Origin: a virus
Length of the DNA: 29,846 nucleotides
Direction: 5' to 3' (one strand)
Virus record (IMG/VR): IMGVR_UViG_3300031974_000249
Span: 1-29,846 of that record
Below the pieces are notes generated by a model, which had not been told where the DNA came from, ran no database searches, and was given only the letters and a program-made list of their open reading frames with translations. Position numbers and translations under genes: made by a program. Positions 7,971-25,650 of the stretch are shown piece by piece; the stretch's first letter is position 1, and each line of letters starts with the position of its first letter.

Positions 7971-8066
7971 ATGCCCGCAAAAGGTCAAATGTACAAGAAG
8001 AAGGCTCCTAAAGCACCTATGCCTAAGAAGAAGCCTATGCCAAAGAAAAAGAAGGTAATGAAATAA
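7971..8066 (+). CDS. 31-residue Lys/Pro/Met-rich peptide
   Basis: A small gene between portal and the next protein, preceded by an excellent ribosome binding site (AAGGAGA, 7958-7964) six bases before the ATG. The product begins MPAKGQMYKKKAPKAP and continues with MPKKKPMPKKKKVMK; about 14 of 31 residues are Lys, with Pro and Met as spacers and no acidic residue. The stop TAA directly abuts the ATG of the following gene. A highly basic peptide made with head proteins could bind DNA or the acidic inner face of the capsid, but that is a guess. The strong ribosome binding site and tight spacing are the main reasons to call it real. Confidence 0.75.
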   Translation: MPAKGQMYKKKAPKAPMPKKKPMPKKKKVMK

Positions 8067-8315: not shown

Positions 8316-9106
8316 TGTCAATATTTGATGAAGCAAAGTCTGCAGATACCCAACCACAGGAAGCTCAGACTACACCAGAGCAGACGCAACAAGAGGAACA
8401 ACCAAAAGAATCTTATTTGCAAAAGCTCGTAGAGACAAGGGGTGATAACTGGAAAGACCCTGAAGTTCTTGCTAAAGGTAAACTTGAGGCTGATGAGCAT
8501 ATCAAGAACCTTGAGACTCAACTCACACAAATGCGAGAAGACCTCAGTAAGCAAGACTATGCAGCCCAGTTGTTGCAACAGCTAGAGGGAAAGGCTTCGG
8601 CTCCCACCAACGAAAAACCTCTAGAGTCCAATAACAATAATAACGGTGGCACTAATACTGAAGGTAACACCAACCTTGCAGTGAGTGAGGAAGACTTAAA
8701 AAGCCTTGTTGAAAAAACTCTAACAGAACGTGAGACTCAAGCTACTGTTCAACAGAATATTTCTACTGTTGACGCTAAGTTGCAAGAGACATATGGTACT
8801 GAGGCACGTAACGTACTAGTCAGTAAGTCGCAAGAACTTGGGATTAGTGTGGAACGTATGCAAGATTTAGCAGCCGAATCACCATCAGCGTTCTTTGCTT
8901 TGATTGGCGAAAAACAACAGACATTCAAACCCATTACTCAGGGGTCTGTTCGCACAGAGGCTGTTGGAGTTAAACCTAACGCAGAACGTGATTTTAATTA
9001 TTATCAAACTATGCGTAGAGAAAACCGTAGCTTATACTACACACCAAAGATGCAACAACAGATGATGGAAGATCGTCAACGTCTAGGTGATAAGTTCGGT
9101 GTTTAA
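8315..9106 (+). CDS. Capsid scaffolding protein
   Basis: A 263-residue, Gln/Glu-rich, low-complexity and helix-forming protein located directly before the major capsid gene, which is the position and composition of phage scaffolds. The N-terminal 35 residues are almost only Gln, Glu, Thr, Pro; residues about 60-90 look like a coiled coil (HIKNLETQLTQMREDLSK); a flexible Asn/Gly linker (NNNNNGGTNTEGN) follows around 106-118; the C-terminal region is basic and aromatic (RDFNYYQTMRRENRSLYYTP), as in scaffold ends that touch the capsid protein. Scaffolds guide coat assembly and leave or are degraded before DNA entry. The start overlaps the preceding stop by one base. Confidence 0.85.
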   Translation: MSIFDEAKSADTQPQEAQTTPEQTQQEEQPKESYLQKLVETRGDNWKDPEVLAKGKLEADEHIKNLETQLTQMREDLSKQDYAAQLLQQLEGKASAPTNEKPLESNNNNNGGTNTEGNTNLAVSEEDLKSLVEKTLTERETQATVQQNISTVDAKLQETYGTEARNVLVSKSQELGISVERMQDLAAESPSAFFALIGEKQQTFKPITQGSVRTEAVGVKPNAERDFNYYQTMRRENRSLYYTPKMQQQMMEDRQRLGDKFGV

Positions 9107-22619: not shown

Positions 22620-22847
22620 ATGGAGATGATAGAGTTCATAACCCAGTGGTTAGCCGCACCTCTTGCGTTTGTTGTATGGTTTCTCTTTATGAAGTCAACA
22701 AAGAACGAGAGAGACATTGCAGTATTACAAGCACAGTATGAATCTAACAGACTAGCCTACGACAGAGAGATGAAAGAACTAAAAGAAACTGTCAAGGCAA
22801 TATTTACTAAACTAGACAGCATAGAGCAATCGTTAAGAGATAAGTAA
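22620..22847 (+). CDS. Small membrane-anchored coiled-coil protein (lysis cassette)
   Basis: A 75-residue protein with an N-terminal membrane helix (FITQWLAAPLAFVVWFLFMK, residues 6-25) followed by a charged coiled coil (NERDIAVLQAQYESNRLAYD and onward to the end). This layout could be a holin-like protein or an inner-membrane spanin subunit; I cannot decide from sequence. It starts four bases after the GH19 protein and its stop overlaps the next start by one base. Context: first gene of a run of membrane and export-related genes that looks like a lysis region. Confidence 0.72.
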   Translation: MEMIEFITQWLAAPLAFVVWFLFMKSTKNERDIAVLQAQYESNRLAYDREMKELKETVKAIFTKLDSIEQSLRDK

Positions 22848-23323
22848 TGGACCCAGTTTCTTGTGTAATGATGGCAACTGGTGCTTTCAAAGCACTAAAA
22901 GGCGCAATCGGTGCAGGTAAAGACTTGCAGGAAATGACAGGTCAGCTTGCCACTTGGGGTAAAGCTTTCTCTGACTTCACTAATCTAGAAGAACGAGAAA
23001 AGAATCCACCTTTTTGGAAGAAAACATTCAAAGGTAGTGACGAAGAGACTGCTATAGAAATATTCGCCAACAAGAAAAAGATGGAAGAAATGAGAAGGGA
23101 AATAAAAGAGCACATCACATGGCATTATGGTAAGTCTGCATGGGATGAGGTGCTACAGATTGAAGCATCGATGCGTAGACGTAGAAAAGAAGAACTTTAT
23201 AAGAAGCAGGAGAGAATAGATGCGATTATTAATTTCAGTATTGGTGGTGTTATGTTTGTCCTTGGGGGCGGCTTGCTACTATTGGTATTCTACTTCATCG
23301 GCAAACAGCAAGGTAGATGGTGA
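22847..23323 (+). CDS. Phage protein with C-terminal membrane helix
   Basis: A 158-residue protein. The N-terminus is small-residue rich (MDPVSCVMMATGAFKALKGA), the middle is strongly charged and probably a coiled coil (KKKMEEMRREIKEHITWHYG, then SMRRRRKEELYKKQERIDAI), and residues about 134-152 form a membrane helix (IGGVMFVLGGGLLLLVFYFI). I recall similar proteins near the lysis genes of aquatic phages but know no function. Starts on the last base of the preceding stop and its stop TGA overlaps the next ATG by one base. Topology suggests inner membrane anchoring with a cytoplasmic body. Confidence 0.75.
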   Translation: MDPVSCVMMATGAFKALKGAIGAGKDLQEMTGQLATWGKAFSDFTNLEEREKNPPFWKKTFKGSDEETAIEIFANKKKMEEMRREIKEHITWHYGKSAWDEVLQIEASMRRRRKEELYKKQERIDAIINFSIGGVMFVLGGGLLLLVFYFIGKQQGRW

Positions 23324-23599: not shown

Positions 23600-23837
23600 T
23601 GATTGGAAAATTATACCAAGACTGATGATGGTAGCCGTGACCGTGTTGACCTATCAAGCTGTTCACTGGTACATGGCCTTACCTGATCCCACAATACAAC
23701 AATCAGGTCTAGTATCAGTTTGTATGGGTGCTCTGACAGGCTGTTTTGGCATATGGATGGGCAAAGAATCTAAGACAACGGTAACTCCAACGAGGGTAGT
23801 ACATGAAGAATCTTATAGTAAGTCTGCTACTAAGTAG
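23580..23837 (+). CDS. Probable holin (two membrane helices)
   Basis: An 85-residue protein with two predicted membrane helices, roughly residues 12-34 (PRLMMVAVTVLTYQAVHWYM) and 42-61 (SGLVSVCMGALTGCFGIWMG), a short loop between them, and a charged tail ending KSATK. Size, two helices and position in a lysis region fit class II holins, which open the inner membrane at the end of infection. I start at the ATG at 23580 (MAHTIVDDWKII) instead of an upstream in-frame start at 23556, because MAHTIVDDWK reads as a natural N-terminus. The lipoprotein gene starts inside its last 35 bases in another frame. Confidence 0.7.
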   Translation: MAHTIVDDWKIIPRLMMVAVTVLTYQAVHWYMALPDPTIQQSGLVSVCMGALTGCFGIWMGKESKTTVTPTRVVHEESYSKSATK

Positions 23838-24189
23838 TTTGTTGGCAGGTTGTATGTTAAATCCTATGAAACTTATAGGCGGTGGGGGTGGACCTAGTGT
23901 CAGTGCTAATGTGCAAGCAGGTAAGACAAACTCACAGACATTAGGTAGTTCTACAAACACAGATCAAGAAATAAACCTACAAACTTTACAAGGAAACTTA
24001 AATCAGAGTAACGATAGAAACAAAGTAAGTACAGATAATGTGGGAAATATAAATATAAATGAAATCCCACCTCTAGTTTTAATACTTTTAGTACTAGGTT
24101 GGTTAGCACCTAGCCCACAAGAAATAGGACGTGGGTTTCTTACTCTTATTGGATCATTTAGGAGAAGTAAAAATGGCCGCAAGACTTAA
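23803..24189 (+). CDS. Lipoprotein with C-terminal membrane segment, candidate unimolecular spanin
   Basis: A 128-residue protein with a lipoprotein signal: basic start, hydrophobic core and lipobox LLAG-C with Cys17. Met at +2 does not specify inner-membrane retention, so the outer membrane is the expected site. The mature part starts with Gly-rich residues (MKLIGGGGGPSVSANVQAG) and a long Asn/Gln/Thr-rich hydrophilic segment, then a hydrophobic helix at about 89-103 (PPLVLILLVLGWLAP) and a short basic tail. An outer-membrane lipid anchor plus a C-terminal inner-membrane helix is the layout of unimolecular spanins, which fuse inner and outer membranes at lysis. It overlaps the holin-like gene by 35 bases and the next gene by 17. 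Function inferred from topology. Confidence 0.72.
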   Translation: MKNLIVSLLLSSLLAGCMLNPMKLIGGGGGPSVSANVQAGKTNSQTLGSSTNTDQEINLQTLQGNLNQSNDRNKVSTDNVGNININEIPPLVLILLVLGWLAPSPQEIGRGFLTLIGSFRRSKNGRKT

Positions 24190-24424
24190 CAAGTCAAAGA
24201 TGAAGTGCAATAGCCCTAGAGCTACGCCTAATCATCCTAGTAAATCTCATGTAGTAAAGGCTTGTGTCAATGGAAAAGAAAAGATTATCAGGTTTGGTCA
24301 GAAAGGTGTCAGAGGAAGCCCTAAAGGTTCAGCTAGGAATAAGGCTTTTCGTGCAAGACATGCTAAGAATATTAAAAAGGGAAAAATGAGTGCAGCGTAT
24401 TGGGCTGCTAAAGTAAAATGGTAA
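24173..24424 (+). CDS. Small basic phage protein of unknown function
   Basis: An 83-residue basic protein. I place the start at 24173 (AGGAG nine bases before) rather than at 24131, because the internal ATG has the clear ribosome binding site. The sequence has MKCNSPRATPNHPSKSHVVK, then ACVNGKEKIIRFGQKGVRGS, then FRARHAKNIKKGKMSAAYWA and ends AKVKW. I recognise this pattern from several aquatic phage genomes but know no assigned function. Two Cys at positions 11 and 29 with His between could hint at a metal site, not enough to claim. It is the first of four small Lys/Arg-rich proteins up to 25614, and the only one with KVKW end. Confidence 0.78.
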   Translation: MAARLNKSKMKCNSPRATPNHPSKSHVVKACVNGKEKIIRFGQKGVRGSPKGSARNKAFRARHAKNIKKGKMSAAYWAAKVKW

Positions 24425-24435
24425 AGGATAATAAA

Positions 24436-24801
24436 ATGAAAACAACAGCAATCGTAACAGCGGCTATGTTAGCAGCAACGTCTACATCAGCTATGGACTT
24501 CTCTGTAGCAGGACAGACTTTATCTATTGGTGCAGAGACTGACCTCAACTATACTACTGGTGTAGAAGAATGGGTATGGGAATTGACACCATCTGCAGGA
24601 ATAACTGCATTAGGTATTGGTTTGAGTGTAGCCACAGACATTGATATGTTGACTCTTGATGAGGGTCACATTTTCCAGGGTCTAGACTTCACTGCAGACT
24701 ATGAAATAGCTAACACTAATATCAATCTATATACAGAAGTTTCAACAGATGCAGACCTAGAATTTGGTGACGTAACTGTAGGGGCTACCTTTAGTTTCTG
24801 A
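24436..24801 (+). CDS. Exported beta-barrel-like outer-membrane protein
   Basis: A 121-residue protein with a Sec signal peptide (MKTTAIVTAAMLAATSTSAM, cleaved probably after A19 or so). The mature part of about 100 residues alternates beta strands: FSVAGQTLSIGAETDLNYTT, ITALGIGLSVATDIDMLTL, FQGLDFTADYEIANTNINLY, and ends DVTVGATFSF with a C-terminal Phe, as in outer membrane proteins recognised by the insertion machinery. The size would allow about six to eight short strands. AAAGGA lies 7 to 8 bases before the ATG at 24436; an alternative upstream ATG at 24418 overlaps the previous gene and lacks a signal-peptide start. Role unknown; receptor masking or envelope change are possibilities. 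Confidence 0.75.
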   Translation: MKTTAIVTAAMLAATSTSAMDFSVAGQTLSIGAETDLNYTTGVEEWVWELTPSAGITALGIGLSVATDIDMLTLDEGHIFQGLDFTADYEIANTNINLYTEVSTDADLEFGDVTVGATFSF

Positions 24802-24992
24802 TGTGGTTAGCTATAGTCATGTTCTGCATGACACCTACAAACTCAACAACGTGCACTATCACAGTTAACAATGAAAACTTGTATAGAACTAGAGAAGCAT
24901 GTAGTGTTGAGATGCGTGGGATGGTGGATATGTTTATATCAAAGGGTATCTTTTCGCAAGGTACATGTGTAGAAATAGGAGTTACATTATGA
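24801..24992 (+). CDS. 63-residue exported or membrane protein, paralogue of 23323-23496
   Basis: ATG overlaps the previous TGA stop by one base. The product starts with a hydrophobic MWLAIVMFCMTPTNSTTCTI, which could be a signal or anchor, followed by YRTREACSVEMRGMVDMFIS and a C-terminal GTCVEIGVTL. Four or more Cys: 9, 18, 31 and 57. Like the protein encoded at 23323, it opens with the DNA string TGATGTGGTT and has Y-x-x-x-x-AC, E-M and a later Cys, so the two genes appear to be copies. No function recognised. The stop is in an ATGA overlap with the next short gene. Confidence 0.66.
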   Translation: MWLAIVMFCMTPTNSTTCTITVNNENLYRTREACSVEMRGMVDMFISKGIFSQGTCVEIGVTL

Positions 24993-25084
24993 ATATAGTA
25001 AAGTGGATATGGAAGTATATCAAACGAGTTGGGTGTGCTATGTTGAATCGTAAGTGCTGCCCTGAGTGTGTATGTAAGGCTTAG
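24989..25084 (+). CDS. 31-residue Cys-rich peptide
   Basis: The ATG overlaps the preceding stop as ATGA, with AGGAG about eight bases upstream. The peptide starts MNIVKWIWKYIKRVGCAMLN and ends RKCCPECVCKA, so it combines an amphipathic basic-aromatic helix with five Cys, four in a KCC-P-E-C-V-CK cluster. The cluster could bind zinc or another thiophilic metal. Too short for family recognition. Support is from the good ribosome binding site, the ATGA junction and the next gene starting three bases after its stop. Confidence 0.58.
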   Translation: MNIVKWIWKYIKRVGCAMLNRKCCPECVCKA

Positions 25085-25086
25085 CC

Positions 25087-25263
25087 ATGGCGAGTCCTAC
25101 ACCTACAAAACCTGCTCTGTGGTCTAGAGCAAAGGCAGAAGCTAAGAAGAAGTTCAAGGTCTATCCTTCAGCATACGCAAATGCTTGGGCTGCTAAGTGG
25201 TACAAGTCTAAAGGCGGTGGATGGAAAGGCAAGGACAACAGGGTAAAGAAGAGGAAGAAGTAA
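25087..25263 (+). CDS. 58-residue Lys/Trp-rich basic protein
   Basis: A small basic protein starting three bases after the Cys-rich peptide and overlapping the next gene by one base (TAATG). The sequence has SRAKAEAKKKFKVYPSAYAN, then AWAAKWYKSKGGGWKGKDNR and ends VKKRKK. The central YPSAYANAWAAKWYK segment, an amphipathic helix with aromatic residues after a Lys-rich helix, is of a type I have seen in aquatic phage small proteins. It may bind nucleic acid or capsid. Function unknown. Confidence 0.74.
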   Translation: MASPTPTKPALWSRAKAEAKKKFKVYPSAYANAWAAKWYKSKGGGWKGKDNRVKKRKK

Positions 25264-25385
25264 TGCCTTATTCAAAGTACTCACCTAAACAAAAGAAACT
25301 AGCTGCAGTAGCACCCCCTAGAAAAAAGATAACTGCAGCTGACATGAAAAAACTTAGATCATCTAAGAAGAAAAAGAAGAAGTGA
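25263..25385 (+). CDS. 40-residue Lys-rich basic peptide
   Basis: Starts on the last base of the previous stop. The product begins MPYSKYSPKQKKLAAVAPPR, continues KKITAADMKKLRSSK and ends in a run of six Lys. I recall similarly short MPYSKYSPKQKKLA proteins in aquatic phages. The next gene starts one base after its stop, so all three basic proteins in this run are made together. Unknown function, possibly DNA or RNA binding. Confidence 0.7.
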   Translation: MPYSKYSPKQKKLAAVAPPRKKITAADMKKLRSSKKKKKK

Positions 25386-25386
25386 T

Positions 25387-25614
25387 ATGGCTAAAGGTGG
25401 TTTAGGTAAATGGTTCGGGGAGAAATGGGTTGATGTCAAAACAGGAAAGCCATGCGGAAGGTCAGGGAAGAAAGATAAACGCAGAGGCTACCCTGCGTGT
25501 AGACCTAAAGCGGTTGCAGGAAGAATATCAAAGAGTGAAGCCAGAAAGAAAACAGGACCAAAGAGAGTCAAGTGGTCAGTAACCGCCTCTGGTAAGAAAA
25601 GAAAAAAGAAATAA
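25387..25614 (+). CDS. 75-residue basic protein with GGLGKWFGEKW motif
   Basis: A small basic protein, last gene of the plus-strand block. It has GGLGKWFGEKWVDVKTGKPC, then GRSGKKDKRRGYPACRPKAV, then a helix SKSEARKKTGPKRVKW and ends GKKRKKK. This layout with two Cys (20 and 35) near basic stretches is known to me from aquatic phages but has no assigned function. Terminator hairpin follows four bases after the stop. Confidence 0.75.
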   Translation: MAKGGLGKWFGEKWVDVKTGKPCGRSGKKDKRRGYPACRPKAVAGRISKSEARKKTGPKRVKWSVTASGKKRKKK

Positions 25615-25617
25615 AAT

Positions 25618-25650
25618 AAACCCCCTTGGATTTCTCCTTGGGGGTTTTTT
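25618..25650. terminator. Bidirectional terminator between convergent operons
   Basis: AAACCCCC (25618-25625) pairs with GGGGGTTT (25640-25647), with an inner GG/CC pair set and a loop, followed on the plus strand by TTTTTTCTT. Read from the minus strand the hairpin is followed by TTTATTTTATTT, so it can also stop leftward transcription. It lies between the plus-strand stop at 25614 and the minus-strand stop at 25652. Confidence 0.85.

Follow-up and report, generated by a model that had tools for sequence, protein, structure and literature searches.

According to its 2015 description (PMC4642659), the small viral protein Tlr6f is conserved across almost all polinton-like viruses as well as in several virophages, many Megavirales and some phages, and resembles no domain of known structure or function. 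A second family, DUF5872 (PF19197), has a listed member in Chrysochromulina parva virus (PMC12085832), and the gp122-126 capsid gene group of phage ICP1 includes Gp125, described as a predicted procapsid protease (PMC9040626, PMC7567579). The families phrog_7595, DUF5754 and DUF5872 are known by name, and we found no function assigned to them in the open-access literature searched. Here we analyzed a cluster of four small basic open reading frames (ORFs), P1 to P4, at the end of the late operon of IMG/VR virus record IMGVR_UViG_3300031974_000249; the entire record, 29,846 bases long, is the window of this study. The four are three things, not one set: P1, which is probably a relative of DUF5754/Tlr6F; the pair P2 and P4, which match the two halves of DUF5872; and P3. 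Modules of these kinds are widespread in viruses, occurring in many other phages and apparently in giant viruses too. The four ORFs are as follows.

24173..24424, plus strand: P1, 83 residues, net charge +22; member of phrog_7595; 84% identical to an ORF of phage SIO1; AlphaFold2 model with pLDDT 84.
25087..25263, plus strand: P2, 58 residues, net charge +16; match to the N-terminal half of DUF5872 (profile positions 1-51 of 116); YPSAYANAW motif.
25263..25385, plus strand: P3, 40 residues, net charge +15; companion of P2 and P4, possibly derived from an EF-hand.
25387..25614, plus strand: P4, 75 residues, net charge +23; match to the C-terminal half of DUF5872 (profile positions 53-90 of 116); Cys23.

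Comparison of P2 and P4 with DUF5872 gave 23.5 bits for the P2 half and 26.7 bits for the P4 half, both just under the gathering score of 27.5. Relatives passing that score were found for the P2 half (L068, 32.4 bits; L266, 35.6 bits) and for the P4 half (L282, 42.8 bits), with the other relatives tested falling below it, and the ORFs of L068, L266 and L282 also match the P2 or P4 hidden Markov model (HMM). Cys23 of P4 is invariant in 53 aligned copies. When HMMs built for P1 to P4 were searched on 240 loci, in which the P2-found and P4-found sets share contigs and their counts are not independent, P2 lay upstream of P4 in all 59 P4-found loci with at least 1500 bases on that side (23 of 23 after dereplication). 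Single-sequence search placed P2 in 77 of 80 P4-found loci, and in the three lacking it (L002, L056 and L079) the sequence begins within about 50 bases of P4. Conversely, P4 lay downstream of P2 in 65 of the 70 P2-found loci with room for it (22 of 24 after dereplication, 21 of them within 250 bases); in the other five (L131, L143, L145, L150 and L163) P2 occurs as one domain within a large protein. In the window the two halves of DUF5872 are not in one polypeptide but are separate genes, whereas a single ORF of L151 carries a P4 domain and then a P2 domain (E 8.8e-7 and 8.8e-25), and 398 residues of L267 hold P4 (E 0.014, weak), P1 (4e-13) and P2 (5e-21). Because the two are neighboring genes here and parts of one protein elsewhere, P2 and P4 very probably act together, the firmest functional inference of this analysis.

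Both halves have many viral relatives, with at least 595 for P4 and at least 573 for P2 among the 600 IMG/VR candidate stretches listed for each. Cellular genomes also yielded relatives of P2, in 34 of 119 candidate stretches; every one of these lies in a metagenome-assembled genome or single-cell contig and possibly in a binned phage contig. In tblastn searches P2 itself matched no phage record, although the related copy from L151 did. P4 had no match in plasmids. Sequence searches of the PDB with P1, P2 and P4, single or as profiles, gave nothing significant, the best E values being 0.13 (a baseplate component) and 0.4 (ribosomal protein L37, with the P4 profile). By Foldseek the best PDB match had an E of 2.8 for P1 and 6.4 for P4, with a best Z of 2.5 in a second look with VIA-align; these results are no sign that the folds are new.

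P3 is an occasional companion of P2 and P4. The local HMM found it in nine of the 240 loci (two from one contig and one being the window), each time with P2, and it is present as well in HTVC106P, L257 and L275; in HTVC106P and L275 all four families lie within about 1.3 kb. P3 is possibly a degenerate EF-hand peptide. The calcium-binding loop DxNxDG is absent from it; a peptide between P2 and P4 in P-SCSP2 has an EF-hand loop (EF-hand_5, E 9.4e-6), and in single comparisons a module of L162 can be aligned with that peptide (E 2e-7) as well as with P3 (E 1e-4), but at E 10 the P-SCSP2 peptide was not among the matches of the P3 HMM. The locus of P-SCSP2, a cyanopodovirus (L084:3570-4548), runs P2, EF-hand peptide, His/Lys-rich peptide, P4 and DUF6321, between scaffold and capsid genes. 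In L014, L017, L019, L020, L022, L023 and L026 a different small basic gene (KHYFRDGTEHKGGMHKMPNGQLHSGKTHGKTSKRLYHF type) sits between P2 and P4.

P1 is an independent module that usually occurs without P2 and P4, which were found in 13 and 14, respectively, of the 68 P1-found loci with room. Its match to phrog_7595 is near full-length (E 3e-29, residues 5-83 on positions 10-96 of 96), and residues 23-63 align to positions 8-49 of DUF5754 (PF19058) with 12.8 bits (E 0.13), below the Pfam gathering score of 27.4 for DUF5754/Tlr6F. The AlphaFold2 model, a beta-hairpin with helices (pTM 0.66), matches Tunisvirus V9SE36, a candidate Tlr6F protein, in a Foldseek search of BFVD (E 5.7e-3, TM 0.63); it also matches ICP1 ORF125 (E 1.4e-2), and five other BFVD matches lie below E 0.001. 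Homology of P1 to a DUF6321 protein was considered and is not called, the profile test being weak (probability 34, E 4e-4, 27 columns). At E 0.01, P1 matched 116 of 50,697 phage records, 68 of them from phages of one Flavobacterium host, of which those listed match weakly (E about 2e-3); in IMG/VR it has at least 599 relatives among the 600 candidate stretches listed. A 1016-residue protein at L223:1232-4279 with cytidylyltransferase-like, metalloprotease-like and Zeta-toxin-like kinase domains has a P1 domain at its C-terminus.

A P1 domain also lies in the product of ICP1 ORF125, Gp125. Residues 185-263 of this protein are a P1-family domain (hhalign probability 95.6, single-comparison E 1.2e-8), and phrog_7595 matches the stretch directly (E 5.8e-11). 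N-terminal of it lies Peptidase_S78_2 (residues 36-160, E 6.6e-10), a domain absent from P1; the C-terminal domain is the sole part that P1 shares with the protease. The protein also matches the head maturation protease family phrog_3017 (E 6e-13), and its P1-domain stretch matches phrog_220, annotated as minor head protein and DNA pilot (E 4e-8). These distributions bear on the proposal of a first-pass annotation that P1 to P4 and a 31-mer at 7971 form a set of five Lys-rich products, to be compared by presence and absence across phages: the comparison links P2 with P4, and in some loci with P3, but P1 is a separate family found mostly apart from them and the 31-mer matches none of the four, so the five find no support as a set.

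The basic character that had drawn attention to the cluster is real. Four hyper-basic micro-proteins of 83, 58, 40 and 75 residues are encoded, as first described, and three of them end in lysine runs (KKRKK in P2, KKKKKK in P3 and KKRKKK in P4). Their net charge of 0.27-0.38 per residue (pI 10.7-11.7) lies far outside the range of 19 other same-strand genes (-0.08 to +0.07); three small genes between P1 and P2, which are outside the 19, have -0.14, -0.02 and +0.19 per residue. Among the 101 ATG-initiated ORFs of at least 30 residues in the window, six reach a net charge of at least 0.25 per residue, namely P1, P2, P4, the 31-mer and ORFs at 8328 and 11892, both inside larger ORFs; P3 is missing from these because its reading frame opens upstream with another ATG, at 25221. 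Small-gene copies elsewhere are basic throughout, with a median net charge of 0.24 per residue for P1 (n=150), medians of 0.24-0.25 when P2 (n=167) and P4 (n=170) are included, and lowest values of 0.12, 0.15 and 0.10 for P1, P2 and P4, respectively. The reported spacing of one to three bases applies to P3 and P4 (one base) and to P2 and the 31-residue Cys gene before it (two bases), but P2 and P3 share one base (TAATG); this overlap and the one-base gap suggest coupled translation of P2, P3 and P4.

The ribosome-binding site of the following gene does not seem to account for the lysine tails. Copies of P2 average 4.39 Lys and Arg in their final ten residues when an ATG follows within 8 bases (n=67) and 3.8 when none follows within 30 bases (n=25), and the corresponding averages for P4 are 4.23 (n=71) and 4.36 (n=28), compared to a baseline of 1.21 in 1238 open frames of 150-600 residues.

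Genes next to the P2-P4 cassette provide a link to the phage head. Counts cover 77 of the 82 nearest large downstream genes and 72 of the 91 upstream ones, and one gene may match several PHROGs. Among the 25 of 48 downstream families listed, matches were to structural proteins (21), portal (8), head-tail adaptor (5), six families of terminase large subunit (3-7 each) and scaffolding (3 and 3), and 18 of the 77 genes matched phrog_23601, annotated as of unknown function. The cassette of P-SCSP2 sits between scaffold and capsid genes, and those of CRP-2 and C72C1 lie a few kb from terminase or portal genes. In sum, the link to the head is fair for P2-P4, and for P1 it rests on the protease fusion.

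Modules of the cassette also occur in large phage proteins. SBM3_00185 of S-BM3 (T4-GC119, 337 residues), whose gene sits between the gp16 and gp17 terminase genes, carries P2 (E 9.5e-23) together with DUF6321 (E 3.7e-23). P4-like stretches in S-BM3, L143, L145, L163, L250 and L259 were seen by eye only and are absent from the P4 HMM list. Two candidates were not used as support. The S-SM1 virion protein T4-GC190, a cytidylyltransferase, was set aside with no modules in the 49 kb of S-SM1 checked, and the likeness of a 707-residue protein with a P2 module (L266:4095-6215) to a prohead protease, seen by eye, was not confirmed by Pfam or PHROGs and was left out of the case for a head role.

We tentatively favor a reading, short of probable but ahead of the alternatives below, in which P1 to P4 are late proteins of the capsid interior or of the packaging step that touch DNA. 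They would be made with the late proteins, and their conserved cores would bring the modules into or onto the procapsid or packaging complex, where the Lys/Arg-rich parts could contact incoming DNA and help to retain, organize or neutralize it. Some modules may exit with the DNA at ejection, and P3 would be an optional basic companion. The earlier proposal that such proteins could condense DNA or be packaged with the genome finds partial support, in that it fits the position of P2-P4 near head and packaging genes and the occurrence of a P1 domain within ICP1's predicted protease. Arithmetic makes bulk condensation less likely than a role in structure or retention: at +76 per set, neutralizing a ~40-kb genome (a size taken from SIO1) with its roughly 80,000 phosphates in full would take some 1000 sets.

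That arithmetic is one of several points that weigh against the capsid-interior reading. The P1 domain of ICP1 has a net charge of 0, so the feature conserved in P1 is not its charge, and most P2 modules embedded in large proteins are less basic than copies encoded by small genes. Relatives of T4-GC190 in L163 and Melnitz phage carry modules, but the S-SM1 copy does not. The neighbor counts were made without a random-gene control, and upstream neighbors are mixed: among the 25 of 66 families listed for the 72 genes, phrog_32327, annotated as of unknown function and present in the window at 22847-23323, has 17 matches, one terminase family has five and the rest are scattered. Mixed, too, are the 92 neighbors of 58 P1-only loci, which include endolysins, GroES, endonucleases, Srd/sigma70-decoy proteins and a few portal proteins. 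The P4 structure model is weak (pLDDT 73). Finally, the literature searched, which excluded supplements, held no virion proteomics or DNA-binding results for these proteins.

The neutral ICP1 copy also counts in favor of the leading alternative, that the proteins are procapsid-only assembly factors, acting as cargo-targeting or substrate tags for scaffold, capsid or prohead protease that are later cleaved or released, with a charge that binds acidic scaffold and not DNA. The fusion of a P1 domain to the predicted prohead protease of ICP1, the match of GR7B to ORF125 over that same P1 part, under a Peptidase_S78_2 annotation, and the scaffold genes adjoining the cassette in some phages agree with such a role. 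We nevertheless consider it unlikely, given that the small-gene copies of P1, P2 and P4 are basic throughout and that many of the 40 records listed out of the 426 matching ORF125 are rV5-like proteases that match over the protease part only.

Marginally less likely again are host-directed effectors, made late or injected, that bind the host nucleoid, RNA polymerase or ribosomes. Near P1-only loci, Srd anti-sigma and sigma70-decoy families account for four of 92 genes each, the L223 protein that ends in P1 combines cytidylyltransferase with a Zeta-toxin-like kinase domain, and in one phage a gene labeled L37ae adjoins P1. These hints are set against the late operon position, the many P2-P4 cassettes near head and packaging genes and the absence of any PADLOC match for P1 to P4; the similarity of P4 to ribosomal protein L37 (E 0.4) is not significant, and binding to ribosomes or nucleoid, which the first-pass annotation had also offered, found no support. 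That the ORFs lack function, being A-rich filler that happens to code for Lys or arising by chance, and that overlapping ribosome-binding sites dictate their tails, is extremely improbable, for although the P2 and P3 tails overlap purine-rich sequence just 5' of the next start, the tails are independent of the downstream gene and the strong conservation among the relatives counted above already contradicts such a reading.

Other features of the window around or related to the cluster are listed here.

24436..24801, plus strand: exported-looking acidic protein, 121 residues, net charge -17, pI 4.1; lies between P1 and P2 and does not belong to the basic group.
24801..24992, plus strand: exported-looking Cys-containing protein, 63 residues; weak phrog_13929 match (E 0.0077).
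24989..25084, plus strand: ORF for a Cys-rich peptide, 31 residues; 2 bases 5' of P2.
25618..25647, plus strand: intrinsic terminator 3' of P4; hairpin -18 kcal/mol, z -3.18.
7971..8066, plus strand: Lys-rich 31-mer, net charge +13; separate gene between a putative portal gene and an ORF of 82 residues.

The 121-residue protein had no Pfam or PHROG match; by eye it resembles a small outer-membrane beta-barrel, with a charge opposite to that of its operon neighbors. Upstream, a lipoprotein-like ORF with a LAGC box (23803-24189, phrog_30566; weak Rz-like spanin match, E 0.013) overlaps the P1 start with its 3' end, and the large ORFs beyond the terminator are on the opposite strand. The 31-mer is an intact ORF with 94% and 87% identity in two of seven related records; it matched none of the P1 to P4 families in Pfam and PHROG scans and is judged a separate gene outside the cluster. 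In Roseobacter phage SIO1 the ORF related to P1 lies 3' of the late genes, facing the PhoH and ribonucleotide reductase block, and Celeribacter phage P12053L has P1 at the same place. Because both have P1 at this place, the record looks like a SIO1/cobavirus-type podovirus, in a sequence comparison that covered the P1 region alone and not whole genomes. The SIO1 copy (L245:5001-5240) carries no annotation in AF189021 or NC_002519.

We found no statement of the link between P1 and the protease or of a split DUF5872 in the open-access literature, subscription papers and supplements lying outside the search, and the accessible text of publications on S-CREM1, P-SS2, P-SCSP1u and Baltic Flavobacterium phages contains no identification of these proteins. 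Small Lys-rich proteins would be easily missed in tryptic virion proteomics, which may therefore have overlooked others of this kind that are packaged. The probable phage relative of Tlr6F forms the C-terminal end of ICP1's predicted protease and P2 and P4 amount to a split DUF5872, which makes the procapsid interior a concrete place to look, and the role is testable in isolated phages that have the genes, such as SIO1, CRP-2, HTVC106P and ICP1. A broader possibility, which we consider rather improbable, is that Tlr6F/DUF5754, the DUF5872 halves, DUF6321 and EF-hand-like peptides constitute an exchangeable kit of small modules, common to tailed phages, polinton-like viruses and giant viruses, that accompanies the genome in the capsid. 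It would amount to a common capsid-interior system of genome handling across unrelated capsid lineages, encoded as tiny genes in podo- and siphophages, strung into one protein in larger phages and welded to the prohead protease in ICP1.

Compared to DUF5872, whose two halves they match, P2 and P4 differ in being two genes here, with P3 between them. T4-GC119 of cyanomyoviruses shares the P2 module and differs in being one protein with an added DUF6321 and another Cys module; a related protein of S-B43, which matches P2 weakly (E 2.5e-4), bears the label of a structural protein. P1 is like DUF5754/Tlr6F in its partial alignment and possibly in its fold, through the match to the Tunisvirus protein, with a sequence score far below the cut-off. 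Ascovirus P64, whose basic domain is described as condensing genomic DNA for encapsidation (PMC6163548), offers a functional analogy only, being a large protein of a eukaryotic virus. The likeness of P1 to Gp125 of ICP1, a predicted prohead protease of the Peptidase_S78_2/XkdF type, is one of sequence, confined to residues 185-263, but P1 stands without a protease domain and is strongly basic, whereas the ICP1 domain is neutral.

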